From Gammaproteobacteria bacterium (GTDB taxonomy: Bacteria > Pseudomonadota > Gammaproteobacteria > SZUA-229): a DNA stretch of 64,000 nt. The notes below the pieces were generated by a model. That model ran no database searches, was not told the origin of the DNA, and was given only the letters and a program-made list of their open reading frames with translations. The DNA is taken from contig JAOUKV010000018.1 of assembly GCA_029882355.1 (NCBI GenBank), forward strand, positions 1 through 64,000, in the 5' to 3' direction. Below are positions 14,090 to 31,674 of the stretch, one piece after another. Each line of letters opens with the position of its first letter. The first letter of the stretch is position 1. The position numbers were made by a program, and so were the translations under genes.

Positions 14090-14827
14090 ATGGTCTATAA
14101 CGAACAAGACATATTGACGTTTGATCAGATAAGAAGTGAATTGCTCACCTTATCTAAAGAGCGTAAGACGGGTGATTTCTGCCTTTTCACCGAGGAGAAG
14201 CATGCGGCAGTCATCAGCTTCAATAAAGGTGAAATTGTTGGTTTACGTTACAGAATATCGAGGGGCAATGATGCTTTAAGGCTTATCAGGAAGATAAATA
14301 GTGCCAAAATCAGATTTCAACCAAATGATGAGTCCGTAAACCGAGCTACCGCAAAAGATATTCTATCGACTGCTGAGATTCTCAAAATATTGGGAGTAGA
14401 GCAGGATGGTTGTACATTTCAGGGCATGGGCAAGAAAATACTGGTTGTGGAAGACAGCGCAACGCAACGCAAAATTATCTGCAAGATGTTAGTGCAGAGT
14501 GGCTACCGCATTTTGGAAGCAAAAGATGGTTACGAAGCTTTATCCATTGCAGAGCTCGAAGAACCGGATCTAATACTGCTCGATATTATTATGCCGGGTA
14601 TTGATGGTTATAAAGTGATGGCAATGATGAAAGAAATTCCGGGTATGGAAAAAGTGCCCATCATCATGCTTACATCTAGAGACAAATTGATCGATAAAAT
14701 GCGCGGCAAAGTTTCAGGCACTAATGAATACCTGACAAAACCATTTAAAAGTAAAGAGCTGATTGGAAAAATAGAAAAATACACGAGTGATGACAGCTCG
14801 TTTCAAAAATCAAAGAGTGGATTATAA
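14090..14827 (+). CDS. DUF4388-like domain fused to a response-regulator receiver
   Basis: Protein of 245 residues. Residues 1-105 resemble the DUF4388/PatA-type N-terminal domain (RKTGDFCLF, then ISFNKGEIVGLRY and NDALRLIRKI), seen in gliding and pilus regulators. Residues 115-235 form a receiver close to PilG/PilH: acidic pair in VVEDSATQRK, phospho-Asp in LLDIIMPGIDGY, Thr in IIMLTSRD and Lys in EYLTKPF, all intact. It should be phosphorylated by the CheA encoded downstream and is a likely output protein of the locus. Shine-Dalgarno AAGGTAAGAG precedes the ATG. Confidence 0.85.
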   Translation: MVYNEQDILTFDQIRSELLTLSKERKTGDFCLFTEEKHAAVISFNKGEIVGLRYRISRGNDALRLIRKINSAKIRFQPNDESVNRATAKDILSTAEILKILGVEQDGCTFQGMGKKILVVEDSATQRKIICKMLVQSGYRILEAKDGYEALSIAELEEPDLILLDIIMPGIDGYKVMAMMKEIPGMEKVPIIMLTSRDKLIDKMRGKVSGTNEYLTKPFKSKELIGKIEKYTSDDSSFQKSKSGL

Positions 14828-14842
14828 AAATGCGACTAATAA

Positions 14843-14859
14843 ATAGGGAAGCTCCCTAT
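14843..14859 (+). other. Small intercistronic hairpin
   Basis: ATAGGGA-AGC-TCCCTAT, a perfect 7-bp stem shortly after the receiver gene, followed by a short T-rich stretch. It could be a weak attenuator or mRNA-stability element. Confidence 0.4.
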
Positions 14860-14915
14860 ATAGTTGTTTTCCACAAGATAATATTATCCAGCCTGGATGT
14901 TAATAGTGATACTAG

Positions 14916-15962
14916 ATGAGCGATAAAAAGAAAATTCTAATTGTTGATGATTCAAAGCTAATTCGTAAGGGTTTGGCTGGAATATTTGAGGCGTCAGACT
15001 CATTCGAGGTTATCGGTGAAGCGGCTGATGGTAAAGAAGCATTGGCAGCGATTAAGAAATTACAGCCGGATGTGGTAACACTTGATGTTGTTATGCCGGG
15101 TATGGACGGACTGACTACGCTGAAGCATATTATGATTGAGTGTCCCAGGCCAACAGTGATGTTGAGTAGCTTGACACAGGATGGAACCGAAACAACCTTT
15201 GATGCGCTTCGTTATGGTGCTGTTGATTTTATAAGCAAACCATCAAGGCTTGAAGATCAGAGTATGGATGATCTGGCAGAAGATATACTCAAAAAACTGG
15301 ATATTGCAGAGGGCATCGATGTTGGTGTTACTTCCTATATTCGAACACGCGCAGGAAATTCGAGCACAAATGAGCCTTTGGAAGGTAAGTGTAAAAGATT
15401 GGTCGCAATGGGTGCGGCTGAAGGTGGTTACCGGGCTCTAATGAAAATTATTCCCAATTTAGTGCCGGGTGATGCGGCCTATTTGGTGGTTCTGTATGCA
15501 GAAGAGAGTCATGTTGATGCATTTGCCTCTTATCTTGATGAGCACAGCAAGGTTGCAGTGAAGCGCGGACAAAATGAAGAAGTTTTACAGGCTGGTAGTT
15601 GTTATATCAGTGCTGGTTCAGATTATATGACCGTGCATGAGAAGGGAGATGATTTGGTCTTGCACGTCAGTCCAGCACCTTTTGCTTCACGCAAAGGATC
15701 TATTGATAGATTGCTATTTTCAGTTGCAGAAATTATGGCTGAAAATTCCGTTGGTGTTGTGCTTTCTGGAGTGGGTATAGATGGTTCTGAAGGAATGGAA
15801 GAAGTTGAGCGTGTGCAAGGCGTGACCATTGTTCAAGAACCAAAAAGCTGTCTGGCTCAGGAAATGTCAAAGTCAGCGCTTACATTGTGCTCACCAAATT
15901 ATATTGTTTCGGATGTTGATATTCCAACGACAATTAATGAAGTGATGGATGTTAGTTTTTAA
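14916..15962 (+). CDS. CheB-like receiver-methylesterase protein with dead catalytic site (1)
   Basis: Protein of 348 residues with CheB architecture. The receiver domain (1-125) is intact: VDDSKLIRKG, LDVVMPGMDG with the phospho-Asp, MLSS and FISKPS. The C-terminal domain (about 160-345) follows the CheB methylesterase fold, but the GASTGG serine motif reads GAAEGG, so the nucleophile is Ala168. The catalytic His of the QHM motif aligns with Tyr194 (LYAEESH). The third triad residue, Asp289 in GVGIDGSEG, is kept. Known CheB enzymes need Ser, His and Asp, so esterase and deamidase activity are very unlikely. A phosphorylation-controlled binding or scaffold role is inferred. It is not truncated or frameshifted. 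Confidence 0.88.
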   Translation: MSDKKKILIVDDSKLIRKGLAGIFEASDSFEVIGEAADGKEALAAIKKLQPDVVTLDVVMPGMDGLTTLKHIMIECPRPTVMLSSLTQDGTETTFDALRYGAVDFISKPSRLEDQSMDDLAEDILKKLDIAEGIDVGVTSYIRTRAGNSSTNEPLEGKCKRLVAMGAAEGGYRALMKIIPNLVPGDAAYLVVLYAEESHVDAFASYLDEHSKVAVKRGQNEEVLQAGSCYISAGSDYMTVHEKGDDLVLHVSPAPFASRKGSIDRLLFSVAEIMAENSVGVVLSGVGIDGSEGMEEVERVQGVTIVQEPKSCLAQEMSKSALTLCSPNYIVSDVDIPTTINEVMDVSF

Positions 15963-16028
15963 GTGATTTTATTTATGAGCATGAAATGTGGCTTTTAAAT
16001 TAAATGATAATAAATTGGTGGTGTTACA

Positions 16029-16044
16029 TCTCTTATAAAAGAGA
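16029..16044 (+). other. Small hairpin between the CheB-like and MCP genes
   Basis: TCTCTT-ATAA-AAGAGA, a 6-bp perfect stem in the 155-base gap before the MCP gene. The gap is AT-rich and may hold an internal promoter, but no strong -35/-10 pair is visible. Confidence 0.3.
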
Positions 16045-16126
16045 GCATCATAGATTTGGATATAAGTGTTATACAGTTTTTAATTAATGATAATTTCTTA
16101 CCTGATTGGGAAGGGGGATGACTAAA

Positions 16127-18586
16127 GTGGCTACTAATGTAAAAGGCAATTTTTTTGCCGATATGAAATTACCGGTGAAAATCGGTTTGGGTTTCGGAAC
16201 GATGGTTTTGCTACTTGTAGCAGCTATTGCGATCACAATTTATGAGGTTGATCAGATACAGGATCTGACTGATCAGGTGGTTGAAACTCGTGTACCAACG
16301 GCGCAGGCCAGTTCGGGTATGCTTATCGGCGTTCAGCAGTCGCTCGCGGCACTTCGTGGTTGGATGCTTCTGGATAATGCTAAATTTAAGGAAAATCGAG
16401 CCGCAGCCTGGAATGACTGGATTGATCCATCATTGAAGGAGATGGCTGAATTATCCAAAGAGTGGGACGATCAGGAGGATATTAAAAGTCTCGAAACCGC
16501 AAGAGCAAGTATAGAAAAATTCAGACAATATCAAAACGAAATTGAGGCAATTGCTAATACCCCGGATGAGCAGCCAGCGGTTAAAATTCTGCTAGAAGAA
16601 GCTGCGCCACGTGCGGCAATTCTCGTTGCCAACATTACCAAAATGATTGACCTTGAGGCGAGACAGGGTGCTGATGCCACGCGTAAATCGATTCTCTATA
16701 TGATGGCTGACGTTCGTGGTACTACCGGTCTGGGTCTGGCGGCGATTCGTGCGTATTTGCTTTCAGGTGATAAAAAGTTTGTTGCCGAATTTGACAAGTT
16801 GTGGGCAAAAAACACCAAACGATTTAAAGACCTTTCAGCTAATTACTCGAATCTGAGTTCAGCGCAGAAAGAGGCCTTTAATGAATTCAAGAAAACACGT
16901 GCAGAATTCGCACCGTTACCACCAAAGATGTTTGAAATCAGGGCGAGTAAAGAGTGGAACGTAGCCAACTACTGGCTGGGTACTAAAGCGGCGCCAGAGG
17001 CTGCAAAAATTGTTGCCGTCTTTGATGAAATAGCGAAGCATGAAGCAAAAGTAATGCTCGAAGATGGCCAAAAAGTAAGAGCTCTGGTGACTCAGTTGGA
17101 TAATCTGGAAATCAGTTTATTGGTTATCGGTATTGTTATTTCATTGGTATTGATTGTGATCTTTACGCGTGTTGTTGCAGGCCCAATTCTTGCAGTGTCG
17201 GCCGCGATTAGAGAGATTTCAGCTAACAAAGATTTGACTATTTCTGTACCAGTTGCGGGTAAAGATGAAATTGGTGAAATGTCATTGGCCTTTAATCAGA
17301 TGATTCAAGATATTCGAGAGGCATTCACCCTGGTGGTAAATATCGCGAATGATGTATCGGTAAACTCGGTAGACATGAATAAACGAGCCTCTGCTAATAA
17401 AGAGCGTTCACAAGGCGAGCTGAAACGTGCGCAGATGTCTGAGAAGGTAATCACCGAGATGGGTGGTACAGCGGCTGAAGTATCAACTGCCTCTGCTGAG
17501 CAGCAGGTGTCTGCAAAAGAAGCCGGTAGAACTATGGCGCAAATGCAGGCGCAAATGAATGAAGTGGCGGCTTCTGCGGATGAGCAGAGTAAAGAGGTTG
17601 TCACAACCATGCAACGTATTTCTGAGATGGGTGAAACCGGTGCGAAGGTGGTAGCGACCTCTCAGGAACAGGGCAAGATGGTTGGTAGGGTAACAGCCTC
17701 TGTGGATGAAATGACAGCGGCGGTTGCGGATATGCATAAGGCGGTAAGCAAAGCAACGGACTTTGGCGAGGCCTCACTCAGCGCGGCAAAAGAAGGTAGT
17801 TTATCGGTAGAAGCGACAGTGGAAGGTATGAAGGCGATTTCTGAATCATCCGAACAGATTTCTGAAATCATCGGCGTAATTACCGAAATTGCGGAACAAA
17901 CCAACTTGCTGGCTTTGAATGCGGCTATTGAGGCTGCTCGAGCTGGTACACATGGTAAGGGTTTCGCGGTGGTTGCGGATGAGGTTGGTAAGCTTGCGCA
18001 ACGTTCATCAGAAGCGGCAAAAGAAATTACTCAGTTGATTAAAGATTCGGCGCAACGAGTAGAAGAAGGAAGTCGATTGACAGAGCAGTCGCAGGCATCG
18101 TTGGCCAAGATTGATGAAGGTGGTAACGCTAATATGGAAGCGATCCAGCAGATTGGTCAAACCGCTGGAACACTGACCGAAAGTAGTCGCGTTGTTCAAA
18201 GTATGATGTCTGAACTGAATACTCTAGCTCAACAGATTGGTGATATGGCGGGTGAGCAGGGTGAACGTCGTAAAGGTGCTGAGGATGCATTGACTAAACT
18301 GCAAAGAATGTCCAACGAAATTAACACTTTGGTAAATCAGGCGGACAAAGGTGGTAACGTGGTTGGCGAGCAGATGATGGGTATTGTAAAACGTACCAAC
18401 GTCATGACTGAAATGACAGAGACACAGAAAGCTCGTTCTCAGGCAATCATGAAAATTGCGCAAGAATCTGCGGGCTCAGCGATGCAAACTGCTGAGGGTG
18501 CTGCAGCGGTTGTGAAAATTACTGAAGATCTTCAGGATAAAGCGGAACAACTTACTAAAGAAGCGCAACAGTTCAAACTCACTTAA
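16127..18586 (+). CDS. Methyl-accepting chemotaxis protein with long helical sensor domain
   Basis: Transmembrane receptor of about 819 residues. In order: TM1 at about 20-40, an all-helical periplasmic sensor of about 290 residues resembling the HBM class, TM2 near 333-352, HAMP to about 405, and a long coiled signalling domain. The kinase-control tip [18 protein letters not shown] near 610 is well conserved, but the usual Glu after AG is Thr (AGTHGKGF). A methylation-site-like [10 protein letters not shown] is near 455, while no CheR lies in the locus and the C-terminus (QQFKLT) lacks a CheR-binding pentapeptide. The GTG at 16127 is chosen because AAGGGGG lies nine bases before it. That Shine-Dalgarno directly abuts the ATG at 16118 and poorly supports the TTG at 16106. 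Confidence 0.93.
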
Positions 18587-18600
18587 TCGAATATTAATGT

Positions 18601-18621
18601 CCGGTACACGTAATGTGCCGG
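18601..18621 (+). other. Hairpin after the MCP gene
   Basis: CCGG pairs with CCGG and CAC with GTG around a small bulge and the loop GTAAT, just after the stop codon and not followed by a T-run. It may protect the MCP message end or partly reduce read-through. Confidence 0.35.
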
Positions 18622-18666
18622 ATGTTGATTGATTTTGAATTGTCTGGTTAATTTGGGGGATATGAC

Positions 18667-19185
18667 ATGGTTGATGTATTTACATCAGAAGAACAAGAAG
18701 ATCTTGAAAACGAAGGCATCATGCAGCTGGTCGGTTTTGAGGTGGGTAAAGAAATATTTGGTGTAGATATTTTGATGGTTCGTGAAATCATTAGATCTGC
18801 ACCTATAACACCGGTACCCAATTCACCGGAGTTTGTCGAAGGCGTGATTAATCTACGCGGTGATATCATTCCGGTCATTGATTTACGCAAAAGACTTAAT
18901 CTCTTTACCGAAGAGATGCAGAAAAAAAACTGGATACTTATCCTTGATATTGAAGGCAGTGTTACAGGTTTTGTTGTAGATATGGTTGATGAAGTGTTAA
19001 AAATTGATGAGAAGACTATCGAGCCAGCGCCAGAGATTGTACTTGCTGGTCTTGAAAGTCAATACATACGTGGTGTGGTCGAAGTGGCCGGTAAGCGTTT
19101 AATGATTCTGCTTAATTTTGACAGTATTTTACTGGCAAATGAAATTAAACAGTTAAAAGAAAGCAAGACGGCAAAAGCATCATAA
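18667..19185 (+). CDS. cheW: CheW-type coupling protein
   Basis: Adaptor that joins receptor tips to CheA, 172 residues, soluble. The SH3-like beta fold is recognisable from LVGFEVGKEIFGVDILMVREI near residue 20, then VEGVINLRGDIIPVIDLRKR and the closing RLMILLNFDSIL. The residue layout is ordinary, so it is probably functional. A clear GGGGGA Shine-Dalgarno precedes the ATG. Its place between MCP and CheY-like genes shows that it serves this array. Confidence 0.96.
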   Translation: MVDVFTSEEQEDLENEGIMQLVGFEVGKEIFGVDILMVREIIRSAPITPVPNSPEFVEGVINLRGDIIPVIDLRKRLNLFTEEMQKKNWILILDIEGSVTGFVVDMVDEVLKIDEKTIEPAPEIVLAGLESQYIRGVVEVAGKRLMILLNFDSILLANEIKQLKESKTAKAS

Positions 19186-19204
19186 TTACCATAGAGCATG
19201 GTAA
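19186..19204 (+). other. Hairpin immediately after cheW
   Basis: TTACCAT-AGAGC-ATGGTAA, a perfect 7-bp stem starting at the base after the cheW stop and followed by AAAAATT. Possible processing or attenuation element between cheW and the CheY-like gene. Confidence 0.4.
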
Positions 19205-19233
19205 AAAATTAAAGTGGAAAGGTGATCTGAGTT

Positions 19234-19593
19234 ATGCATAAACAGGTATTGATTGTTGATGATTCATCAATGATGCGAAAACTGATAACACGAACTCTGA
19301 CTTCAATAGAGTGTGATATTGTCGGCGAAGCCAGCAATGGTGTAGAGGCATTGGAGTTGTATAAGGAGTTAAAGCCTGACCTTGTTACCATGGATATAAC
19401 TATGCGTGGTATGGATGGTTTTACTGCGGCTCAGGGAATTTTGGAGTTTGATGATAAGGCAAAGATATTATTTTTGTCTAATCTTGATGATGATAAATAT
19501 CGAGAAATGGTCGTTGAAGTTGGTGGTGTTGGTATGGCCAAAAAACATCATTCCGATGAAATTGCAATGCTAATTAAAGCAATAGACGAATGA
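19234..19593 (+). CDS. CheY-like single-domain response regulator with altered switch residues
   Basis: Receiver domain only, 119 residues. The acidic pocket (VDDSSMMRK) and phospho-Asp (TMDITMRGMDG) are present, and Ser occupies the Thr/Ser switch position (LFLSNLDDD). Near the end, the usual aromatic-x-x-Lys-Pro stretch reads GVGMAKKHH, so the conserved Lys is kept but Pro is Lys and the aromatic switch residue appears to be Gly. It should still accept phosphate from CheA. Its output surface probably differs from flagellar CheY; it could be a phosphate sink or bind a non-flagellar target. Confidence 0.93.
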   Translation: MHKQVLIVDDSSMMRKLITRTLTSIECDIVGEASNGVEALELYKELKPDLVTMDITMRGMDGFTAAQGILEFDDKAKILFLSNLDDDKYREMVVEVGGVGMAKKHHSDEIAMLIKAIDE

Positions 19594-19674
19594 AAAGAAT
19601 GTTGTCTGTCATAATTGCATGTAAGGCGATGGGCGAATGTTTCGTAGCGGGTATGAACAAGGTAGGAATGAACG

Positions 19675-22600
19675 ATGAGTGACGTAGATATAAGTTTGCT
19701 TCCTGATTATTTGGTAGAGGCAGCCGAGCATCTTGAAGAGATGGAGTCACTGCTTCTTCAGTTGGCAGATGAACCCGAGAACGTCGAAGTATTGGATGAA
19801 ATATTTCGTCCAATACATAGCATAAAAGGCGCTGCACAGTTTATAGGTTTAGTGCACTCTTCACGCTTGGCGCATCGCTTAGAAGATTTGCTTGATTTAT
19901 TACGTAATGGCGAACGCCCATCTAGTCCAGCTGTTGTTGAGTTGTTAATTGCTGCTCGTGATTTAATTGTTACCCTGGCTGATGAGCTTGAAAATAATCA
20001 GGCCGAGATAAGCTCAGTCGATGACATGGTTGATCAGATCACGGCAGAAATTGAAGGTGAAGCAGTAACTGATAGTTCCAATGAATATGAAGAAATACCT
20101 GTTCAATCAGATTTACCTGTTAGTGCCGGTGGGTATGATGAAGAAAATGACCAGGAGTTATTTGGTATATTTTTAGAAAACCTTCGTGAGAAAATTGACG
20201 TAGTTCGTATTCAGCTAGCGGAACTTGAAGGTTCATCAGAAAAACCTGCGTTGCTTGAACGTTGTGCTGAAACTATTCAAGGTCTTCATTCAGCCGCTAA
20301 TTACATGGGTTATGAAGAACTCACCAACATATATAGTAACTGCCTGGAAGATATTGCCGCAGTACAGGAAGCATTAGCTACTGGTGAGGAAGTACCTTAT
20401 GACTTTATGGATGGTTATCTAAGAGAATTAACTGAGCTTTTCCCTCAGCTGGGGCAGGTAGATTCTGCTGCAATAAACGCAGGTAGCAGCCAGTCTGCAG
20501 AGATTGAAAGTGAAACCCAGGAAGAAGATAGTGATCTAGATGTCACTATGCTACCAGATTATTTGGTAGAGGCTGCGGATCATCTTGAAGAGATGGAAAC
20601 GTTGCTACTTAAATTGGCTGATGAGCCAGAGAATATTGAAGTGCTGGATGAAATATTTCGTCCAATACATAGTATAAAAGGTGCGGCACAGTTCATTGGT
20701 CTTAATCGATCTTCACGGCTGGCACACCGACTAGAAGATTTACTTGATTTACTGCGTAAAGGTGAGCGACCCTCTAGCCCGGCAGTAGTCGAGCTACTTA
20801 TTGCGGCACGTGATTTAATAGTTACACTCGCAGATGAATTAGAAAATTCCCAGAAAGAAATGTCATCAGTCGATGATATGGTTGCTCAAATAACAGCCGA
20901 GATTGAAGGTGGTGTTACTGCTGCTAGCGCTGCTGCGCCCAAAGATATAACGGTTGAAACTGATGTATCTAATAGTGCTGGTTACAATGAAGAAAATGAT
21001 CAGGAATTGTTTTCTATATTTATTGAGAACCTGCGTGAGAAAATTGATTTAGTTCGCATTCAGGTAGCAGAGCTTGAAAATTCTCCTGATAAAATAGCGT
21101 TACTTGAACGCTGCGCTGAGACTATTCAATCGCTTTATTCAGCGGCAAATTATATGGGCTACGAAGAGCTTACCCGTATATATAGTAACTGTCTTGAAGA
21201 TATTAGCGTTGTTCAAGATGCCCTGGCCAAAAATGAAGAAATACCATATGACTTTATGGATGGTTACCTGTTAGAAATAGCAGGGCTTTTCCCTCAGTTA
21301 GCACAAACCTTATCTGGAACTGAAACCGTTAAGGCTAGTGAAGAAAAAACACCAGAAGAAGCGCTTGCTGAAAAGCTAAGTAATGCGCTTGATAATGCTG
21401 CATCCGATTCAGAAGAAGTCGAGTATGAGTTGTTACATGGTGTATTTGAGGAAATGATTTCTGATAGGACAGAGGAGCCAGTTGAGGATGAGATCGCTAA
21501 GATATCAACTAGTAAGCAAAAACCGAGTACTAAAGCAGAAGTTGAATCAACAGTAAATAAACCTGATGATGCTAAAGTTAAACCTGCTCAGAAAAAATCA
21601 AAAATCACTAAAAAAGCACCGCCTTCAAAAACTGATGAAGAAGATAATCTGCTTAAAAGTCCAAATGATAGACGTGCAGCTGATCGCAGAAATAGCGAGA
21701 CTTCTGTTATTAAGAAAAGCGTCCGTGTTGAAGCAGAAAAAATTGATTCGCTTATCAACCAGGTGGGCGAGCTTGTGGTAGACAGGGCGTACTTCTTTCA
21801 GTTGTTTGATGATATGCGCGGTTTACAGCAGCATTTAAAAGATGATATCGGTTTAGATCAGAAAGAAATGAAGCAGATAAGAGCTTTTACTTATCGAATG
21901 AGTGAGGCAATTGCATCATTGAGTCGTACTTCAAATGAGCTTCAGGAAGGTGTGATGAAGGTGCGTATGTTGCCCATCTCGCAGCTGTTTAATCGATATC
22001 CAAGATTAGTCCATGATTTGACTCGCAACAATAACAAAAAAGTTAATTTGAAGGTTGAGGGTGAAGACACTGAGCTAGACAAGATGGTGGTGGAGAAATT
22101 GTCTGATCCACTTATTCATGTAATTAGAAATGCGGTAGATCATGGTATTGAAGGTGGTAGTGATCGCGCTGATTCTGGTAAAGCTGAAACCGCAACGCTT
22201 TTCTTAAAGGCTTATCACGAAAGTAATCAGGTTGTTGTAGAGGTTACCGATGATGGTCGTGGTATTGACCCTGCCACGATCAAAGCCAAGGCCGTAGAAA
22301 AAGGTATCGTTTCTAAACATGAAGCTAACCGAATGACGTCTCAGGAAGTTGTTCGATTAATCACTGCGCCCGGTTTTTCTACAGCAGAAAAGATAACAGA
22401 TACCTCTGGCCGTGGTGTTGGTATGGATGTGGTTAGAAAAAATATCGAAAAACTTAATGGTACTCTAGATATTGATTCTGTCCCTGGTAAAGGTACAACT
22501 ATACGCTTGAAGATCCCTTTGACCCTGGCCATCATACCTGCTCATCTGGTTCGTGTTAGCGGAAATATGTATACCATCCCATTAGCCAATATTGAAGAAA

Positions 22601-23007
22601 CGCTAAGAATAGATCCAAAAGATTCAACCATTATTGAAGGCACTGAAGTTATCTATTTAAGAGGGAAAACACTGCCTATTATTCATCTTTCAACTTTATT
22701 TGCCACGCGCAAAATTACTTCAGTGAAAGAAAACTTCTTTGTCGTTGTTGTTAATACCGGTACTCAGAAATTAGGTCTGGTTGTTGATGAATTATTAGGG
22801 CAGGAAGAGGTGGTAATTAAACCACTGGTGGATTATCTTCGAGATAAGAGTGGTTTTTCTGGTGCGACGATTATTGGTGACGGCAGTATCTCACTTATTC
22901 TTGATATTTATGAGATTGCACAGATGACATCAAGCCAGCAAATTAAGCGCCAGCACGCACTGGTTAATGCCAGGAAGGCAGCTAGTGCAGAACGGGTCAA
23001 TAATTAA
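19675..23007 (+). CDS. cheA: CheA-type histidine kinase with duplicated Hpt region
   Basis: Cytoplasmic chemosensory kinase of 1110 residues, much longer than E. coli CheA (654). Order: Hpt1 with phospho-His48 (PIHSIKGAAQFIG), an Hpt-like domain with Gln202 at the His position, Hpt2 with His332, a second Hpt-like domain with Gln485, a charged linker (about 545-680), the dimerisation helices from about 683, and the ATPase domain. The ATPase domain carries the N-box HVIRNAVDHGIE at 815, DDGRGID near 859 and GRGVGMD near 912. A CheW-like domain runs from 955 to the end. Residues 3-260 and 287-545 are repeats of each other. There is no C-terminal receiver. All kinase motifs are intact. It should phosphorylate the four receiver proteins of the locus. 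Confidence 0.96.
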   Translation: MSDVDISLLPDYLVEAAEHLEEMESLLLQLADEPENVEVLDEIFRPIHSIKGAAQFIGLVHSSRLAHRLEDLLDLLRNGERPSSPAVVELLIAARDLIVTLADELENNQAEISSVDDMVDQITAEIEGEAVTDSSNEYEEIPVQSDLPVSAGGYDEENDQELFGIFLENLREKIDVVRIQLAELEGSSEKPALLERCAETIQGLHSAANYMGYEELTNIYSNCLEDIAAVQEALATGEEVPYDFMDGYLRELTELFPQLGQVDSAAINAGSSQSAEIESETQEEDSDLDVTMLPDYLVEAADHLEEMETLLLKLADEPENIEVLDEIFRPIHSIKGAAQFIGLNRSSRLAHRLEDLLDLLRKGERPSSPAVVELLIAARDLIVTLADELENSQKEMSSVDDMVAQITAEIEGGVTAASAAAPKDITVETDVSNSAGYNEENDQELFSIFIENLREKIDLVRIQVAELENSPDKIALLERCAETIQSLYSAANYMGYEELTRIYSNCLEDISVVQDALAKNEEIPYDFMDGYLLEIAGLFPQLAQTLSGTETVKASEEKTPEEALAEKLSNALDNAASDSEEVEYELLHGVFEEMISDRTEEPVEDEIAKISTSKQKPSTKAEVESTVNKPDDAKVKPAQKKSKITKKAPPSKTDEEDNLLKSPNDRRAADRRNSETSVIKKSVRVEAEKIDSLINQVGELVVDRAYFFQLFDDMRGLQQHLKDDIGLDQKEMKQIRAFTYRMSEAIASLSRTSNELQEGVMKVRMLPISQLFNRYPRLVHDLTRNNNKKVNLKVEGEDTELDKMVVEKLSDPLIHVIRNAVDHGIEGGSDRADSGKAETATLFLKAYHESNQVVVEVTDDGRGIDPATIKAKAVEKGIVSKHEANRMTSQEVVRLITAPGFSTAEKITDTSGRGVGMDVVRKNIEKLNGTLDIDSVPGKGTTIRLKIPLTLAIIPAHLVRVSGNMYTIPLANIEETLRIDPKDSTIIEGTEVIYLRGKTLPIIHLSTLFATRKITSVKENFFVVVVNTGTQKLGLVVDELLGQEEVVIKPLVDYLRDKSGFSGATIIGDGSISLILDIYEIAQMTSSQQIKRQHALVNARKAASAERVNN
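19681..21306 (+). repeat. Internal duplication in cheA (two copies of about 775 bases)
   Basis: Copy 1 runs from about 19681 to 20455 and copy 2 from about 20533 to 21306. Each encodes one true Hpt and one Hpt-like domain. The proteins agree over long stretches (for example LLIAARDLIVTLADELEN in both), while codons differ often, so the duplication is old and under selection. Confidence 0.85.
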
Positions 23008-23083
23008 CCATGTTGGCCTGTGTCCAGAAATTAACTTATGACAGTGGTAATAAATCATCAGTTTTAGCTAATGAGGAATAATT

Positions 23084-24127
23084 GTGGGAGATAAGATAAA
23101 AGTTCTGATTGTTGATGATGCCACTTTTATGGTTAAGGCCATACGTGAAATATTAGAATCAGATGCTGAGATAGAAGTTGTTGGAAGTGCCAAGAATGGT
23201 CTTGAAGCGCTTAAGCTGATAAAAGAACTTAGACCGGATGTGATTACCTTAGACGTTGATATGCCTGTCATGGATGGACTTAAGACGGTTCGTCATATCA
23301 TGATCGAATCACCCGTTCCTGTAGTGATGTTGAGCTCACTGTCTGAGCATGGTGATATTACTTTTGAAGCAATACGTTTGGGTGTGGTTGATTTTTTACC
23401 CAAACCATCGGGTGCCATATCGCAAGATATTCATGATGTTAGGCAACAGATAATTGATCGAGTAAAAATTGCTGCCTCGGTGACTATGAAAAATATTCAT
23501 CGAGTAAAATTAAATGGTTCGAGTGAACAAAGCGAGCTTACTGAGCGTTATGGTTACCAGGAAATGGACTATATTGTCACTATTGGTACAACCTTAGGTG
23601 GTCCCAATACGGTTATTAACTTAATGACTATGCTGCCATCAGTGCTGCCAGTTACTATAGTTGTAATTCAAGAAATCGCACCAAAAATATTGCCTTCATT
23701 TGCCAAGCAATTTGCAGAGCAAACGTCCTGGCGTGTAGAAGCAGGTGAGGCTGGTAAGGAACTAGAGCAGGGTGTTTGTTATATTTGCTCTAACGAAACA
23801 CCGCTACATGTTGAACGAGATGCTCAAAACAAAATTACCTTGCTAACCCAGGCTGGTGATGAGCAGCCTTTGAATGCTCTTTTTACATCTGCATCTGACA
23901 TCTTTGGTGCTAATACAATAGGTGTTTTATTGACCGGTATTGGTAATGATGGTACAGATGGTTTTGCAGCAATAAGAAGCAATGCTGGTGTAACTATCGC
24001 TCAGAGTACGGATACTTGTGTTTACCCTAATTTGACACAATGTGCGATTGAGCATGGAAATGTCGATTATATTGTTGATGCAGATGAGCTGGCAAAAAAA
24101 ATAATGTCAGTGGTCGAAGTTGATTAA
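23084..24127 (+). CDS. CheB-like receiver-methylesterase protein with dead catalytic site (2)
   Basis: Second CheB-like protein, 347 residues. The receiver is intact (VDDATFMVKA, LDVDMPVMDG, MLSS, FLPKPSG). In the esterase-like domain the GASTGG motif reads GTTLGG, putting Thr170 in place of the nucleophilic Ser. The QHM histidine aligns with Glu197 (IQEIAPK). Asp289 in GIGNDGTDG is kept. Thr cannot be excluded as a nucleophile, but loss of the His makes normal esterase activity unlikely. It is clearly diverged from the first copy, so this is not a recent duplicate. GTG start with GAGGAA eight bases upstream. It follows cheA by 76 bases. Confidence 0.88.
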   Translation: MGDKIKVLIVDDATFMVKAIREILESDAEIEVVGSAKNGLEALKLIKELRPDVITLDVDMPVMDGLKTVRHIMIESPVPVVMLSSLSEHGDITFEAIRLGVVDFLPKPSGAISQDIHDVRQQIIDRVKIAASVTMKNIHRVKLNGSSEQSELTERYGYQEMDYIVTIGTTLGGPNTVINLMTMLPSVLPVTIVVIQEIAPKILPSFAKQFAEQTSWRVEAGEAGKELEQGVCYICSNETPLHVERDAQNKITLLTQAGDEQPLNALFTSASDIFGANTIGVLLTGIGNDGTDGFAAIRSNAGVTIAQSTDTCVYPNLTQCAIEHGNVDYIVDADELAKKIMSVVEVD

Positions 24128-24192
24128 TGGTTGTCATAGAGCTAGACCTGATCACTGTGGCCTATGATTCAAATATGATTGAGATATAATTG

Positions 24193-25134
24193 ATGTTTAT
24201 CAGTTGTGACAAATGTAATACAAAATACAAAGTCGATGAAAGTGTCTTCAAAAAACCTAGCTTACGAGTAAAGTGCTCTAAGTGTCAGCATGTTTTTACT
24301 GCTTACAAAACACCGCCACCGCTCGATGATACTCCATTTGTACTAGAGGATTCTGGTGCAGTTATAAAAACACAGGCGCCAGCACCTGAATGTAAAATTA
24401 TCTGCGTATGTAATCAGAAAGGCGGTGTTGCTAAGACCTCTACCTGTTTAAACTTGGCGAGCGCTTTGTCTGCCAAAGGTAAACGAGTGCTGTTAATAGA
24501 TTTTGATGTGCAGGCTAACCTTTCTTTATTATTACGTTGTAAAAATAAAAAGTCATTTTTTGAAGTCATGGACACTGATGATGGTGATTTAACCAAAGCT
24601 ATTGTCAAAACTAAACATGGCATATGGCTGTTACCCTCTAACAGTAGAATGGCATTAGCTTCTAAAAAATACCTCAATCAGGAAAATTTTGAATATTTAC
24701 TAAGGGAAAAGTTGGCAAGAATAAAAAAGGTCTTTGATTACATCATTATTGATACACCTCCCTCTGGCGACTTTTATACTCTTAATGCGTTGTTAGCTTC
24801 TGATCTAGCTATTATTCCGACGCAGTGTGATTATCTGTCTATGAATGGTGTTGCGCATATAGTTAATATGATCAATGTAATTAAAAACAAAACAAATCAT
24901 AAACTTGATTACAGAGGGCTGGCAACACTATATACTCCAACAAATACTGTGGAAAATGTGATTTACAAGAAGTTAAAAACACAGCTTGCTGGGAAAATGT
25001 TTGATACCGTGATTAACAGGGACAGTAGTCTTCAGGAGTCACACATTGCGAGATTACCCGTGATCGAATATGACGAGAATAGTCAGGCGGGCAAGCAGTA
25101 TCTGGAGTTGTCAGACGAGTTACTAGGGATTTAA
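24193..25134 (+). CDS. ParA/MinD-type ATPase with N-terminal MJ0042 zinc ribbon
   Basis: Protein of 313 residues. Residues 1-37 form a zinc ribbon of the MJ0042 type (CDKCNTKYKV....KCSKCQHVF). From about 70 a ParA ATPase follows: deviant Walker A NQKGGVAKTST, switch I IDFDVQANLS, and Walker B IIIDTPPSGD. ParA homologues such as ParC of Vibrio and PpfA of Rhodobacter place chemosensory arrays in the cell. The location right after the chemosensory genes suggests the same job here, but a link to the transporter that follows by six bases is also possible. No ParB partner is encoded nearby. Confidence 0.9.
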   Translation: MFISCDKCNTKYKVDESVFKKPSLRVKCSKCQHVFTAYKTPPPLDDTPFVLEDSGAVIKTQAPAPECKIICVCNQKGGVAKTSTCLNLASALSAKGKRVLLIDFDVQANLSLLLRCKNKKSFFEVMDTDDGDLTKAIVKTKHGIWLLPSNSRMALASKKYLNQENFEYLLREKLARIKKVFDYIIIDTPPSGDFYTLNALLASDLAIIPTQCDYLSMNGVAHIVNMINVIKNKTNHKLDYRGLATLYTPTNTVENVIYKKLKTQLAGKMFDTVINRDSSLQESHIARLPVIEYDENSQAGKQYLELSDELLGI

Positions 25135-25140
25135 TTAAAT

Positions 25141-25926
25141 ATGCGTTTACATGAAAACACATCGCCACTAGAAAATAATACATGGCTTCTAGGTGTCATT
25201 GCATTTATTTCAATGTGTATATTATGGTGGGGTTTGGTTGAGTTTTACGATATCAACGAAAAAGTGTTTCCCGGCCCTGTTGCAGTGTTTGAAAGCTTTT
25301 GGCTACTACTTTTAGATGGTAGTTTACTGAAGCATACAGTGGCAAGCCTGTACCGAGTCACAGTAGGTTTTTATTTAGCCGCAGCACTTGGAATTCCGCT
25401 TGGTATATTTATTGGTCGTGTTACGCTGGCACGAAATTTACTCAACCCCATTATTCAATTTTTAAGACCAATTTCACCCCTGGCATGGATACCATTGGCT
25501 ATGTTGTGGTTCGGTATTGGTGATAATCCCGCTATATTTCTGATATTTCTTGCCTGTTTTTTTCCACTGGTAGTTTCAACTACTATAGCGGTTGTCTCCA
25601 TTAATAAAGTCTATTTTCAGGTAGCCTCAAATTTTAATTTTAATCATACCGAACACTTGTTTAAAATTATAATCCCAGCGATTATTCCTGATTTGGTAAC
25701 GGCGTTAAGATTAACCGTTTCGATTGCCTGGTTAGTTGTTGTCGCGGCAGAAATGATTGCCGTGCAGTCAGGTCTAGGTTTTTTAATTCTCGATTCACGT
25801 AATGCCTTGCGTATGGATTATGTGATGGTAGGCATGATTGTAATTGGCATGATTGGATTGTTACTCGATTTTGTTGTGAAACAATTGGGTAATGGTAAGT
25901 CCTCTGTCTGGAAGGAAGTAACATAG
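25141..25926 (+). CDS. NitT/TauT-type ABC transporter permease
   Basis: Inner-membrane permease of 261 residues with about six membrane segments. It belongs to the nitrate/sulfonate/taurine/bicarbonate family (SsuC/TauC/NrtB-like). The EAA-like loop is near residues 175-200 (NFNHTEHLFKIIIPAIIPDL), and the typical N-terminal KVFPGPVAVFESF is present. It starts six bases after the ParA stop behind AGGGA, so the two are translationally linked. The substrate cannot be read from the sequence. Confidence 0.95.
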   Translation: MRLHENTSPLENNTWLLGVIAFISMCILWWGLVEFYDINEKVFPGPVAVFESFWLLLLDGSLLKHTVASLYRVTVGFYLAAALGIPLGIFIGRVTLARNLLNPIIQFLRPISPLAWIPLAMLWFGIGDNPAIFLIFLACFFPLVVSTTIAVVSINKVYFQVASNFNFNHTEHLFKIIIPAIIPDLVTALRLTVSIAWLVVVAAEMIAVQSGLGFLILDSRNALRMDYVMVGMIVIGMIGLLLDFVVKQLGNGKSSVWKEVT

Positions 25927-25941
25927 CGGATGATATATTAA

Positions 25942-26736
25942 ATGGCTTACATTGAATTAATTAATCTAAGAAAAGAGTATATCGAAAGAAGGACTCATCG
26001 ACGCAGTAAAGCAGATAATGAGCATCAGGGCGATAAACTGATTGCACTAGATGGTATCGATCTTGAGTTTCAAGAAGGTGAATTAGTCTGTATTTTAGGA
26101 CCTTCTGGTTGTGGTAAATCGACCATGTTACGTTTGATTGCTGGTTTTGAAAAACCTACAGCGGGTAAAGTATTGATTCAGGGATCTGAAATCAGAAATC
26201 CATGCCCTGAAAGTGTTTTTGTCTTTCAGCAAGATGGATTATTACCGTGGATGACTGTATGGGAAAATATGGAGTTGGGCTTGAATCATATGGACAATGA
26301 GGATGAAAAGAATGACAGAATTAATGAATATATTGAGTTGGTAGAGTTGGTTGGATTTGAGAATAATTACCCCTATCAATTATCAGGAGGCATGAAACGT
26401 AGGGCGGAATTGGCACGTGCTTTGGTGGTAAACCCTGAAATGTTAATGATGGATGAGCCATTTACCGGTCTGGACTTTCTTACTCATATGAAAATGCGTG
26501 AGGAAGTCGTCAATATGCATGAATTTATTGGTAAAACCATGATTATGATCACTCATTTTATTGATGATGCTTTGACCATGGCTGATCGTGTGATTGTTCT
26601 GAGTGAACGACCTACAAAAGTTAAAATGATACGCGAGCTAAATGTTCAGCGTCCTCGAAATATAGAAAAAGACCCCGTACTGCGTGAATTGCGTGATGAA
26701 ATATATTTAATGCTGGGTGTCAGTTATGTCGTTTAA
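25942..26736 (+). CDS. NitT/TauT-type ABC transporter ATPase
   Basis: Cytoplasmic ATP-binding subunit, 264 residues. Walker A GPSGCGKST near 54, Q-loop FQQDGLLPW, signature LSGGMKRRAELARAL (the usual Gln of LSGGMxQR is Arg), Walker B MLMMDEPFTGLD and the switch His in MITHFIDDA are present. A basic, charged insert of about 15 residues after the first strand (RRTHRRSKADNE) is unusual for the family. It overlaps the start of the solute-binding protein gene. Confidence 0.96.
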   Translation: MAYIELINLRKEYIERRTHRRSKADNEHQGDKLIALDGIDLEFQEGELVCILGPSGCGKSTMLRLIAGFEKPTAGKVLIQGSEIRNPCPESVFVFQQDGLLPWMTVWENMELGLNHMDNEDEKNDRINEYIELVELVGFENNYPYQLSGGMKRRAELARALVVNPEMLMMDEPFTGLDFLTHMKMREEVVNMHEFIGKTMIMITHFIDDALTMADRVIVLSERPTKVKMIRELNVQRPRNIEKDPVLRELRDEIYLMLGVSYVV

Positions 26737-27784
26737 GGGAATATTCAGTATAAAGTCTTTGTGGCAGCATCTTAAATATAACTCAACAGTTCATGTCGGT
26801 GTAATTATAATGCTCTGGCTTGTTGTTATCGTCGCTGCACATAACGAACTTAATGTAGAAAAACAACATCGTAAACAAATTACGATGGGCTATATGCCTG
26901 TGGTTACTAACTTAGCTTCCCCTTTACTTGATTATGTTAGTCGTGAGGGTGATGGTCTTCGCTTTAAAGCACTTAAATTTTCCTCTTTTGCAGAGATGGC
27001 TGAGTCTCTCCGTAATGGTCAGATTGATGCAGCTTTCATTATTGCCCCGTTGGCTATTGAGTTAAGGCAGCAGGGTGAAGATGTCAAAGTAGTCTACATT
27101 GGTAACCGTCATGAAAGTACGCTGGTGGCCAGGAAAGATCTTAATGTTAAAAGTCTGCATGACCTGATCGGAAAGACGGTCGCTGTACCAATGCGATACT
27201 CTGGGCACAATCTAAGTATTTTGCAGCTAATTAAAGAAAATGGACTTGAAGGCCAAATCAATGTCGTGGAAATGAATCCACCTGATATGGCTTCGGCACT
27301 GTCTACTGGCTCACTTGACGCATATTATGTCGGTGAACCTTTTGCTGCCAGCACGCTGCAAAGCGGTGAATCTGAACTGGTGTTCTATGTTGAAGATGTC
27401 TGGAACGATTTTATATGTAATTTGGTCCTGGTTAGGCAGGAATGGATTGATAAAGATCCGGAAGGAGTTAAAGCACTGGTTGATGGCGCTGTTCGATCAG
27501 GTCTTTGGGCACGAAAGAATTCGGCACAAGCGGCAGAAATTGCTTCAATTTACTGGAATCAACCTGTTGATCTGATCGAGTATGCTTTGAATACACCTAA
27601 GGATCGAATTTTGTTTGATAAATATGTGCCAAAAGAAGATGAGATGCAGTACATGGCGGATATGATGAAAAAGTATGGTCTTATTGACAATAATGACATT
27701 ACAGGTTTGATCGACGATAAGTTTGCACTTGAGGTGGATCTTGAGAATATAAAAGGTCCTGAGTCAATTATGATTGTTAAGTAA
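26726..27784 (+). CDS. Solute-binding protein of NitT/TauT ABC transporter, probably membrane-tethered
   Basis: Periplasmic binding protein of the NMT1/THI5-SsuA-NrtA class, 352 residues. The binding core starts at MGYMPVVTNLASPLLDYV and contains FAEMAESLRNGQIDAAFI, IGKTVAVPMRYSGHN and LDAYYVGEPFAAS. The N-terminal hydrophobic segment (VHVGVIIMLWLVVIVAAHN) lacks a clear cleavage site, so the protein may stay anchored. ATG at 26726 gives an 11-base overlap with the ATPase gene; the GTG at 26717 is less likely. As the last gene before a strong terminator, it closes the cistron. Relatives bind nitrate, sulfonates, bicarbonate, pyrimidine precursors or phosphite-like ligands. Confidence 0.93.
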   Translation: MSFKGIFSIKSLWQHLKYNSTVHVGVIIMLWLVVIVAAHNELNVEKQHRKQITMGYMPVVTNLASPLLDYVSREGDGLRFKALKFSSFAEMAESLRNGQIDAAFIIAPLAIELRQQGEDVKVVYIGNRHESTLVARKDLNVKSLHDLIGKTVAVPMRYSGHNLSILQLIKENGLEGQINVVEMNPPDMASALSTGSLDAYYVGEPFAASTLQSGESELVFYVEDVWNDFICNLVLVRQEWIDKDPEGVKALVDGAVRSGLWARKNSAQAAEIASIYWNQPVDLIEYALNTPKDRILFDKYVPKEDEMQYMADMMKKYGLIDNNDITGLIDDKFALEVDLENIKGPESIMIVK

Positions 27785-27814: not shown

Positions 27815-27851
27815 AAAAAGCCCGCCAATGAATTTCATTGACGGGCTTTTT
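27815..27851. terminator. Strong bidirectional terminator ending the chemosensory-transporter locus
   Basis: AAAAAGCCCG..CAATGAA pairs with TTCATTG..CGGGCTTTTT with one mismatch near the middle. It separates the plus-strand locus from the minus-strand hemerythrin gene and can serve both. Confidence 0.93.
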
Positions 27852-27876: not shown

Positions 27877-28287
27877 CTATCTAAATCCACCAGCATTGGC
27901 TTCATCTGAATACTTTGTATCCATAGATATAATATGCTCTTTTAACCAGTCAATACCCAATCGCGATACTTTTGGTACAGCAAAAATAGCCATGCCACCA
28001 TCAGCTTCATTTTTATATTCCGTAATTTTGTCTACAAACGCAACATGGGCTCTTTTCTGACTATCAATACCAGAATAGTGGACTTGTTCAAGCATTCGTT
28101 CTTCTTCGCCAAAATGATATTTTGTGTAGTCAACTAGCTCGGTAATGAATTTAGCAAGTACATCTTCATCTGTACCCGATTTCATTGCGTCGTGCATTTG
28201 ATTCATGATATCAAACAGTTTTTTGTGATGGTTGTCCATAGCGAGAACGCTTACGCTATATTCATCACTCCAGTTAAATAAGGCCAT
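27877..28287 (-). CDS. Bacteriohemerythrin
   Basis: Small soluble di-iron O2-binding protein, 136 residues. The iron ligands are visible: His in DNHHKKLFD, HFGEEE, HYSGIDSQKRAHVAFV and HIISMD. The ATG at 28287 is preferred over the TTG five codons earlier because GGAG lies nine bases upstream and the protein then starts at the conserved MALFNWSDEYSV. Single-domain hemerythrins store or carry O2 or report on it. It is convergent with the transporter genes, so it is not part of their transcript. Confidence 0.95.
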   Translation of the reverse strand: MALFNWSDEYSVSVLAMDNHHKKLFDIMNQMHDAMKSGTDEDVLAKFITELVDYTKYHFGEEERMLEQVHYSGIDSQKRAHVAFVDKITEYKNEADGGMAIFAVPKVSRLGIDWLKEHIISMDTKYSDEANAGGFR

Positions 28288-28456
28288 TGTGTATAACTCC
28301 AAAAAAAGTGTAGTTTATATTAGTCGGATTTTGTCAGCATTTGATAGAGGCATAAATCGACTTATGCTTAGGTACAAGTTTAGATTAAATATATGAAAAA
28401 GACTCATTCTCAAAAAAAATAATAACAGAATCAGCTAAAAGAATCATTTTCTATCC

Positions 28457-29585: not shown

Positions 29586-30350
29586 TTAAATAGATTGGAA
29601 AATTAGATGGATGCCAATTAACGTCATAAGAAAAATAAAAGTTTCTTTGAGTATTTTGTCATCAATATATCGCGCTACACGGGGGCCGATTTGACCTCCG
29701 ATTAGTGTTCCCAGTCCACCCCATAATAAGTAATTTACTTCAACAACCTCTTCCATTAAAGACCAGTGTAAACCAGCAGCGACGATGGCTAGTAAAAACA
29801 TCATTGGAATGACGGTTGCAACACAACGTCTCATACTGAGTTTTAACTTGCTGCGCATAGCGGGTATTAACCACTCACCAATACCTAGCGATAAAAACCC
29901 CATAATGAATCCAAAAAATCCTGGTATAGGTAGTAGATGGTTAACTTTTTCCTGGTTAAATTTATAATTATCTCGTTCTTCATCTGTTTGATCCTGACTG
30001 GCAACAAATAACAGAGCGAGTGTCATGGCCATAATGCCTAATGCCATTTGCACGGGTTGCTGGGGTAAATTTACGGTAGTATAACTGCCAATAATAACGC
30101 CGGGTAAAGCAGCTGCAAAAAAGATCAGAGCTAATTTTTTATCGACAAGGTTTGTTCGTAAAAAGGCAAAAGTTCCACTGCCCATACCAATTACCTGTAT
30201 CAATAACGATGTTGCTACCGCTGCCTGTGGTGATAGTCCATAGGCAAGGATCAACAGAGGAGTCCATAAAATACCTCCACCAATACCAATCGTCATTGCC
30301 GCAGTGGAGAAGAGCAGTCCTGCTAAAACTAGTCCTAGTTCTTCAATCAT
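29586..30350 (-). CDS. TauE/SafE-family (TSUP) membrane transporter
   Basis: Inner-membrane protein of 254 residues with about eight membrane segments. The family motif appears twice, as expected: IGIGGGILWTPLLIL with PQAAVATSLL in the first half and MGFLSLGIGEWLIPAM in the second. Family members export sulfite or organosulfonates or move other small carboxylates; the substrate here is unknown. Its ATG overlaps the stop of the HAMP gene (ATGA), so translation is coupled to that gene and the PilZ gene upstream. Confidence 0.93.
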   Translation of the reverse strand: MIEELGLVLAGLLFSTAAMTIGIGGGILWTPLLILAYGLSPQAAVATSLLIQVIGMGSGTFAFLRTNLVDKKLALIFFAAALPGVIIGSYTTVNLPQQPVQMALGIMAMTLALLFVASQDQTDEERDNYKFNQEKVNHLLPIPGFFGFIMGFLSLGIGEWLIPAMRSKLKLSMRRCVATVIPMMFLLAIVAAGLHWSLMEEVVEVNYLLWGGLGTLIGGQIGPRVARYIDDKILKETFIFLMTLIGIHLIFQSI

Positions 30351-30946
30351 TCTTTTATATCCGTTTCTAGAAGATTGAATGAATCAATAAACATGCGTAA
30401 TGAGTCGAGCTCATGTCTGATCAGGGATATCTGTTTGGTACTATCTGAAGCGTTATCGTCCAGAGTTTTTGATAGATCATCGATTCTAGATTCTATGGCA
30501 TTTATCATGCCGGAGGTTGAAGAAGCAATCTCCTGGAAATTACTGGTTAATTCATTAATGACTACACCCAATTGGCCAACTTCATCGTGTGTTTCTATTT
30601 TTATTACCTGGCTTAGATCGCCATCATTGATCAGCTCCGCTGTATCTAAAGTTCTTTGTAAAGGTCGTGTGATGTTTTTAACGAACATCATCATGACAAT
30701 GGCCATAACTATCGTCAGCACACCGAACATGACAACAATCTTGTTTCGTAAGCTAGAAAGAGCAGGGGATTCATATAATGTGGAGTTGATACTGTCTGTA
30801 ATAGCAGTTGTGTTTACGCAAATGTCCTGTTGAAGTCCCGGCCTACCCATCTCAAAATAGAACTCGACACCTATCATCATTGCTGCGATTGCTATTAGTA
30901 AAAAATAGTTAAGCAGGATGGTTTCCAGTTTTTGAGTTTGTTTCAT
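30347..30946 (-). CDS. Two-TM protein with HAMP domain and no output domain
   Basis: Protein of 199 residues. TM1 is at about 12-30, a very short periplasmic loop of about 35 residues follows, TM2 lies near 68-90, then HAMP (ITRPLQRTLDTAELINDGDL....DEVGQLG) to about 142 and a C-terminal coiled-coil to the end. No kinase, cyclase or MCP tip follows, so signal output must be through protein contacts. It lies between a PilZ gene and a TSUP transporter gene in one operon. I do not recognise a named family. Confidence 0.8.
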   Translation of the reverse strand: MKQTQKLETILLNYFLLIAIAAMMIGVEFYFEMGRPGLQQDICVNTTAITDSINSTLYESPALSSLRNKIVVMFGVLTIVMAIVMMMFVKNITRPLQRTLDTAELINDGDLSQVIKIETHDEVGQLGVVINELTSNFQEIASSTSGMINAIESRIDDLSKTLDDNASDSTKQISLIRHELDSLRMFIDSFNLLETDIKE

Positions 30947-30954
30947 GAGTGACT

Positions 30955-31374
30955 TTAGTTGTCAGCTAGAATTTCGGAAAAATATTTTTTCAGGGCAATC
31001 ATATCATCTTCGTAAATGTTGATAAATTTAACTCCTATGTCATAACCTTGATGGTCTACAGACTTCTTTGACCATATTACTTCTGAAATAACAGTTAATG
31101 TATCTGCTTCTGATAGTTCATTGCTCAGGATAGTTTTAAGGCCTTTACGGTGACGATGCCAACCATTAATTTTCATATCAAGGCTTAGCATCTTCCCCTG
31201 TTTATAATCTGTAGAGGTGGTGAAACATATACCATGCTCTGCAATATCTAGAGTTATTCCTTCTTCTGTGGAATTATTCGAGAGAGGGTATTCAATTGTT
31301 TTTATTTCAATCTGAACCTCTTTTGGTACACGAGTACATTCTCTTGTAATATTATTTTTATTGTTTTTAGGCAT
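30955..31374 (-). CDS. PilZ domain protein
   Basis: Single-domain protein of 139 residues. The c-di-GMP-binding RxxxR motif appears as RECTR at residues 11-15, and the second motif DxSxxG as DIAEHG, with Ala in place of Ser. The rest fits the PilZ beta-barrel (HRHRKGLKTIL, YDIGVKFINI). Binding of c-di-GMP is likely but may be weakened by the Ser change. It is the first gene of a minus-strand operon with the HAMP protein nine bases downstream and the TauE-like transporter. Confidence 0.87.
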   Translation of the reverse strand: MPKNNKNNITRECTRVPKEVQIEIKTIEYPLSNNSTEEGITLDIAEHGICFTTSTDYKQGKMLSLDMKINGWHRHRKGLKTILSNELSEADTLTVISEVIWSKKSVDHQGYDIGVKFINIYEDDMIALKKYFSEILADN

Positions 31375-31674
31375 ATCAATATTTCGGGGAAATCCGCTCC
31401 TTGTAAACCATATTTATGGTGAGGTTGTTGTTTCACTTTATTTCTATTTGGTATGCATTTAGTTTAAATAATATGATATTACAGGTGATTATAAGTGATA
31501 AACAGTTGAATTTCAGGGTAAGTTTGTGTTGATCGGCTATAATTCAGAGACTTATATATTGTATAAATACACCTAATTACAGGGGTAGTTAGTATTGATA
31601 ATATGTTCGTATATAAGTTTTAAACTGATTTCATGTGCCATTATTATGGCGAGATAGAGTCCAGGATAGTATGT
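31375..31674. other. Divergent intergenic region
   Basis: This gap of 300 bases holds the start regions of the PilZ operon (minus) and the SPOR-domain gene (plus). It is AT-rich. An exact TATAAT lies at 31538-31543 on the plus strand, without a good -35 at normal spacing. No coding sequence is supported; a short in-frame extension of the SPOR gene to an ATG at 31633 is not favoured. Confidence 0.5.

Follow-up and report, generated by a model that had tools for sequence, protein, structure and literature searches.

A conserved gene set joining a chemosensory array, a ParA-type ATPase and a NitT/TauT-type importer in Gammaproteobacteria and Desulfobacterota

Flagella, pili and a small number of regulatory outputs are known to be under the control of chemosensory arrays. 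ParC/ParP and PpfA are ATPase systems that position such arrays, and solute-binding proteins (SBPs) can assist chemotaxis, as maltose-binding protein does with Tar, whose partner binding proteins diffuse freely. Cache domains commonly bind ligands themselves. The subject of this analysis is a stretch of 64,000 nucleotides (the window; positions 1 to 64,000 of contig JAOUKV010000018.1) from a gammaproteobacterium of the SZUA-229 lineage. Eleven open reading frames (ORFs), all on the + strand, span positions 14090-27784 (taken from the ORF list of the window, with domains from Pfam and fold matches) and encode, in order, a response regulator (RR1), CheB1, a methyl-accepting chemotaxis protein (MCP), CheW, CheY, CheA, CheB2, ParA and the permease, ATPase and SBP of an ATP-binding cassette (ABC) importer. 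This unit is, very probably, a co-inherited functional entity. The preferred reading, to which we give a probability of about 0.45, is that the chemosensory kinase controls the importer within a methylation-independent unit wired to transport. If true, such coupling would make transport a further output, or input, of chemosensory arrays.

As in chemosensory systems of the ACF and F classes, the MCP, CheW, CheA, CheY and CheB-like genes of the unit are clustered, and the core is complete, with an MCP, CheW and a CheA that carries Hpt, dimerisation, ATPase and CheW domains. The unit differs from these systems in having no CheR, no CheB with an intact catalytic triad and a built-in ABC importer. 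ParC/ParP and PpfA likewise place a ParA-type ATPase gene inside a chemosensory cluster, and the unit's ATPase has the ParA fold and deviant Walker A of that type; its N-terminal MJ0042 zinc ribbon and the transporter gene that comes next set it apart. The permease, ATPase and SBP belong to the families of the NitT/TauT importers SsuABC, TauABC, NrtABCD and CmpABCD, but the SBP is tethered by one N-terminal helix, lacks a lipobox and is encoded behind a kinase array. Like maltose-binding protein and Tar, the unit brings the binding protein of an importer near a chemoreceptor, although here the sensor domain of the receptor is not conserved with the SBP and the SBP is tethered. No description of the unit was found in full-text literature searches, within whose reach subscription papers mostly did not fall; this is no proof, and the unit appears to be an undescribed variant of chemosensory systems. 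New here are the loss of the triad in the 100 unit CheBs together with the missing CheR, the swapped receptor sensors and a TauE-HAMP(-PilZ) module. The original prediction, made from the letters of the window, had named the families of the chemosensory genes correctly; it had overlooked that the CheBs appear inactive, that CheR is missing, that ParA carries a zinc ribbon and that a HAMP-TauE-PilZ module is present.

Of the 54 genomes in the window's order, 8, counting the window's own, have a close SBP orthologue (63% identity or more). The block from CheB1 to the SBP is collinear throughout in genomes G031 and G036 and from the MCP to the SBP in G038 (contig end); it is split over a contig break in G032, and contigs end inside or just before the transporter genes in G017, G008 and G039. 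An SBP-alignment scan of public genomes gave 127 confirmed loci, the best 80 of which were analysed. Gene order was counted in the 65 of these with at least 5.5 kb upstream, the other 15 being set aside. Che genes and the permease lie upstream of the SBP gene on the same strand in 57/65 loci, the full set of CheA, CheB2, ParA, permease and ATPase is present in 51/65, and ParA lies between the chemosensory and transport parts in 51/65. The remaining eight are locus L100, in which the che genes are divergent, and seven without any che genes nearby. Among the 15 set-aside loci, L065 and L091 show the che core and L116 has it on the other strand. The neighbourhood survives a break of the operon both in L100 and in L116, where ParA and the CheBs are on the opposite strand. 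The scan overlaps the survey of the order, as L059, L060, L063, L069, L070, L087 and L089 are apparently contigs of G039, G008, G038, G032, G031, G036 and G292 (equal lengths or identical entries), so the counts over 65 loci do not stand independently of the collinearity seen in the order.

The reverse search found a CheB2 orthologue in 5/54 genomes of the order and 3/274 of the class (own genome in both), and all six other genomes carry the transporter beside it, G032 across a contig break. The conserved arrangement in distant genomes, together with the reverse search, strongly supports the claim that these genes form a sensory-transport unit; far from being rarely together, the two parts make up the full set in 51/65 loci. 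Twelve distant SBPs (22-30% identical) served as a control and have no CheA or CheW nearby, a weak comparison since their flanks extend just ~1-1.5 kb; two of these loci (L022 and L026) show an unspecific receiver-domain match. Pairwise distances correlate between the transporter and the Che and ParA proteins (r 0.61-0.86; SBP-CheB2 0.67, ATPase-CheA 0.68) and inside each part (r 0.48-0.89; SBP-ATPase 0.48).

By tree labels, carriers belong to Pseudomonadota, Thermodesulfobacteriota and one acidobacterial metagenome-assembled genome (L130), which holds the MCP to the SBP in order; summarised, these are Gammaproteobacteria, Desulfobacterota and the acidobacterial genome. SBP entries named 'Deltaproteobacteria' had been filed under Myxococcota by the tree labelling. 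Cultured carriers, which make the unit experimentally accessible, are Desulfobulbus rhabdoformis DSM 8777, Desulfosarcina widdelii PP31, Desulfosarcina alkanivorans PL12 and Desulfatitalea alkaliphila M08but, and cable bacteria and methanotrophs are among the further carriers.

The CheBs of the unit do not retain all three of Ser, His and Asp, the catalytic triad. With residues aligned to the solved CheB 1a2o and identical sequences dropped, the triad is intact in 0/100 unit CheBs. CheB2 orthologues keep the His in 0/58 and the Ser in 19/58, and CheB1 orthologues keep the Ser in 0/10 and the His in 4/10; for the 32 other CheBs, which are DUF4388-fused or divergent, the residue assignments are less secure. 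DUF4388-REC-CheB fusions (L085:4513-6297 and L119:12904-14283) are a third CheB-like kind without an intact triad. The other CheB of the window genome, in a cluster on contig C62, keeps all three residues, and that cluster holds the only CheR match of the genome. A BLAST comparison of the C62 CheR with 89 unit loci gave no CheR homologue; two weak matches over short stretches (26-42% identity), one in L148 and one in another part of the window, were discounted. Because the unit has neither an intact CheB triad nor a CheR, methylation-based adaptation by the unit itself seems unlikely. With the triad uniformly lost and no CheR present, the unit lends itself to finding out which role CheB-like receivers play once they are unable to demethylate.

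The signalling domain of the receptor is shared, with 215 residues from the HAMP DExG motif to the hairpin tip in 17/17 MCPs. This spacing points to a long-heptad class, 58H by our own arithmetic; chemosensory classes have class-specific HMMs (excerpt of PMC6943060). The sensor domain is of the 4HB type in the window MCP and L077 (weakly in L049 and L054), dCache in L051, L104 and L147 (weakly in L080, L092 and L099) and Cache3-2 in L100, while the SBP stays 54-82% identical among loci with exchanged sensor domains. Because the sensor folds are swapped, the input to the receptor appears to vary by species as the SBP and transporter remain constant. CheA (19675-23007) has two Hpt domains that share an identical 17-residue stretch at the phosphorylation site and lie 284 residues apart, a tandem duplication of the N-terminal block. 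Its relatives range from ~880 to 1345 residues, and strict patterns applied to 56 CheAs, many of them cut, matched the N- and G-boxes in 37/56 and the Hpt motif in 50/56, counts to which no weight is given. According to PMC10782961, CheAs with more than one Hpt domain belong mainly to the ACF and Tfp classes.

The deviant Walker A is present in 62/62 ParA homologues, and a Cys motif lies within the first 60 residues in 58/62. The C62 cluster has a ParA of its own that is 26% identical to that of the unit and aligns only from residue 69 on. In the importer, the motifs of the ATPase are intact in 82/82 homologues; Walker B was matched in 54/82 by a first pattern and, in its aspartate-glutamate form, in 82/82 by a looser one. 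With a permease, this ATPase and an NMT1/SsuA-type SBP, the transporter has the composition of a NitT/TauT importer. The SBP had been predicted to be tethered to the membrane, and this holds: its N-terminus resembles a membrane span and lacks a lipobox in 81/81 homologues, and the structure model (mean predicted local distance difference test 92.7) has one helix at residues 23-46 followed by a binding-protein fold. The closest folds by Z score are 3un6 (35.9; root-mean-square deviation 2.0 over 283 aligned residues), NrtA (33.2; 2.5, 294), the regulatory domain of CmpC (32.8; 2.3, 288), TauA (28.6; 2.5, 274) and SsuA (28.2; 2.6, 277), and further neighbours include CmpA, the regulatory domain of NrtC and the sensor SBP AioX. 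These neighbours bind all of sulfonate, nitrate and bicarbonate. Since the model's neighbours are NrtA/CmpA, CmpC/NrtC, TauA and SsuA, the predicted ligand is most likely a small oxyanion of the nitrate, bicarbonate or sulfonate kind. It is perhaps a sulfur oxyanion or sulfonate, a leaning that comes from TauE standing near a TauA/SsuA-like importer.

The unit is broader than 14090-27784, as PilZ, HAMP and TauE form a second module. A TauE/SafE permease occurs in 28/80 loci, each time with a small HAMP membrane protein alongside (28/28); the small HAMP protein occurs in 39/80 and a PilZ protein in 17/80. Small HAMP proteins recur next to TauE or between CheY and CheA. The TauE of the unit resembles the TauE/SafE (TSUP) family over the whole protein and differs in this constant HAMP partner. 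Among Desulfobulbaceae and cable bacteria, the operon goes on as SBP-PilZ-HAMP-TauE-(DUF4388-REC-CheB), and in the window the trio (29586-31374, - strand) lies two genes away from the unit.

Taken as kinase control of the importer, the unit might work as follows. The receptor array would report an external condition that differs by species, and CheA would pass phosphoryl groups to CheY, to RR1 and to the receivers of both pseudo-CheBs. These proteins would then exert their effect through binding and not through receptor demethylation, adjusting how active the importer (and TauE) is or where it is placed, with ParA spacing or co-localising the array and the transporter. Methylation memory is probably absent because the unit has no CheR and no active CheB, which would let it act as a graded transport switch rather than as a circuit for climbing gradients. 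A more tentative proposal, which we regard as doubtful, is that the unit represents a distinct, undescribed type of chemosensory system. In it, an array without methylation memory, working with pseudo-CheB adaptors and a zinc-ribbon ParA, would gate and position a dedicated importer (together with a TauE-type permease) directly, and the kinase output would be membrane transport, not motility or gene expression.

Several points weigh against kinase control of the importer. The unit receptor could still be methylated in trans by the CheR of C62. A single transcript of the eleven genes from one operon is plausible at most, because the gaps before ParA are 48-155 bases wide and a stem-loop stands at 18593-18629; these features weaken the single-transcript assumption. 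Some of the correlation between distances is to be expected because the proteins have a species history in common. The transporter can function alone, since 7/65 loci have no che genes nearby (L067, L072, L079, L094, L102, L109 and L133); no shared ligand pathway was found among the neighbours of these loci, which include an epimerase, a TRAP T-component, a SpoIIE-Cache protein, a protease, an ankyrin, TonB and UPF0261. Competibacteraceae loci L077, L080 and L092 lack ParA and keep every other part of the unit. Finally, G008, G017 and G039 (71-85% complete) have the SBP and no CheB2 match, which reflects either incompleteness or true absence.

The main rival, which we consider unlikely, takes the transporter as the input: its turnover or occupancy would be reported to CheA through the SBP, the HAMP protein or ParA, comparable to Pst-PhoR or Bce-type systems. 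A conserved SBP beside a variable receptor would make the transporter the constant input, and both the recurrence of small HAMP proteins by TauE or between CheY and CheA and the SBP-like regulatory domains (NrtC, CmpC) and sensor SBP (AioX) among the fold neighbours are in keeping with this. However, no domain was found that would couple the ABC subunits with CheA, and the seven stand-alone transporters speak against it. Co-regulation without physical or regulatory coupling, with taxis and uptake sharing a niche and being expressed together, ranks lower and is improbable. Operon linkage by itself can arise in this way, and the genes are tightly packed only from ParA on, but the neighbourhood is kept over phyla with swapped receptors and through the strand changes of L100 and L116, and ParA stands between both parts in most loci.

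Classic sensing of the SBP, in which the loaded protein would dock on the periplasmic domain of the receptor, in the manner of maltose-binding protein and Tar, and CheA would direct taxis to the solute, is lower still and quite improbable. The SBP and receptor occur within one unit, the tether holds the SBP at the membrane and the window receptor has a 4HB domain; yet elsewhere that domain is exchanged for dCache or Cache3-2 and the SBP is kept, a permanent tether is unlike the freely diffusing partners of Tar, and Cache domains often bind ligands directly. The original prediction that the bound solute might be read by the periplasmic domain of the receptor is therefore not borne out, as unrelated folds replace that domain beside an SBP that is 54-82% identical; the other option it gave, that the kinase sets uptake, is compatible with the observations. 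The swaps rule out docking as the common mechanism, and a single species may differ. That the genes are chance neighbours or a local rearrangement has almost no probability: the patchy occurrence of CheB2 (5/54 and 3/274 genomes) would suit it, but the collinear genomes of the order, the same ordered set in 51/65 loci and the reverse search rule out chance.

The layout of the window (Table 1) agrees with what had been predicted for it: 14090-27784 is on a single strand and ends at a strong terminator according to the ORF list and the hairpin energy, and the gaps of 6, 15 and -11 bases from ParA on hold with the SBP start at ATG 26726, the start favoured by the alignment of relatives. The MCP start (ATG 16118) was picked for the GGGGG upstream. 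Promoter-like matches in the window equal those in shuffles (42 vs 42.0).

Table 1. Features of the unit and its second module in the window
Feature	Position	Strand	Evidence
RR1, response regulator, DUF4388-like N-terminus and REC	14090..14827	+	Pfam REC E 1.9e-26; DUF4388 sub-threshold, E 0.022
CheB1, REC and CheB domain without catalytic Ser	14916..15962	+	Domain match and residue alignment
MCP, 4HB-type periplasmic domain, HAMP, very long signalling hairpin	16118..18586	+	Domain matches
Strong stem-loop with poor T-run, between MCP and CheW	18593..18629	+	-21.5 kcal/mol, z -4.6
CheW	18667..19185	+	Domain match
CheY-like single receiver	19234..19593	+	Domain match
CheA, two Hpt, dimerisation, ATPase and CheW domains	19675..23007	+	Domain matches; both Hpt histidines present
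CheB2, REC and CheB domain, Ser->Thr, His->Glu	23084..24127	+	Domain match and residue alignment
ParA-type ATPase, N-terminal MJ0042 zinc ribbon	24193..25134	+	Domain matches
ABC permease, NitT/TauT type	25141..25926	+	Domain matches
ABC ATPase, NitT/TauT type, catalytic motifs intact	25942..26736	+	Domain and motif check
Membrane-tethered NMT1/SsuA-type SBP, no lipobox	26726..27784	+	Domain match, structure model, motif check
Bidirectional terminator hairpin	27815..27851	.	-20.8 kcal/mol, z -6.7
TauE/SafE (TSUP) permease	29586..30350	-	Pfam E 2.5e-43; recurs in 28/80 loci
HAMP-domain small membrane protein, 4-base overlap with TauE	30347..30946	-	Domain match and recurrence
PilZ protein	30955..31374	-	Domain match and recurrence

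RR1 also lies immediately 5' of CheB1 in locus L147. The stem-loop at 18593-18629, in the interval between MCP and CheW, may limit or process the RNA downstream. A hemerythrin-like gene (27877-28302) flanks the unit in the window; one is also found at L049:19652-19999 and, by eye, on the other side in G036. Between the two modules, 28565-29545 encodes a short trigger-factor-like protein (FKBP and Trigger_C). Divergent from the PilZ gene, 31633-34203 encodes a long acidic protein that has no Pfam match and a C-terminus that we take to be SPOR-like in appearance, and long proteins resembling it adjoin TauE in L049, L053 and L057. The large protein encoded at 34314-37019 has repeat units with an LWLIGG core that look kelch-like by eye.

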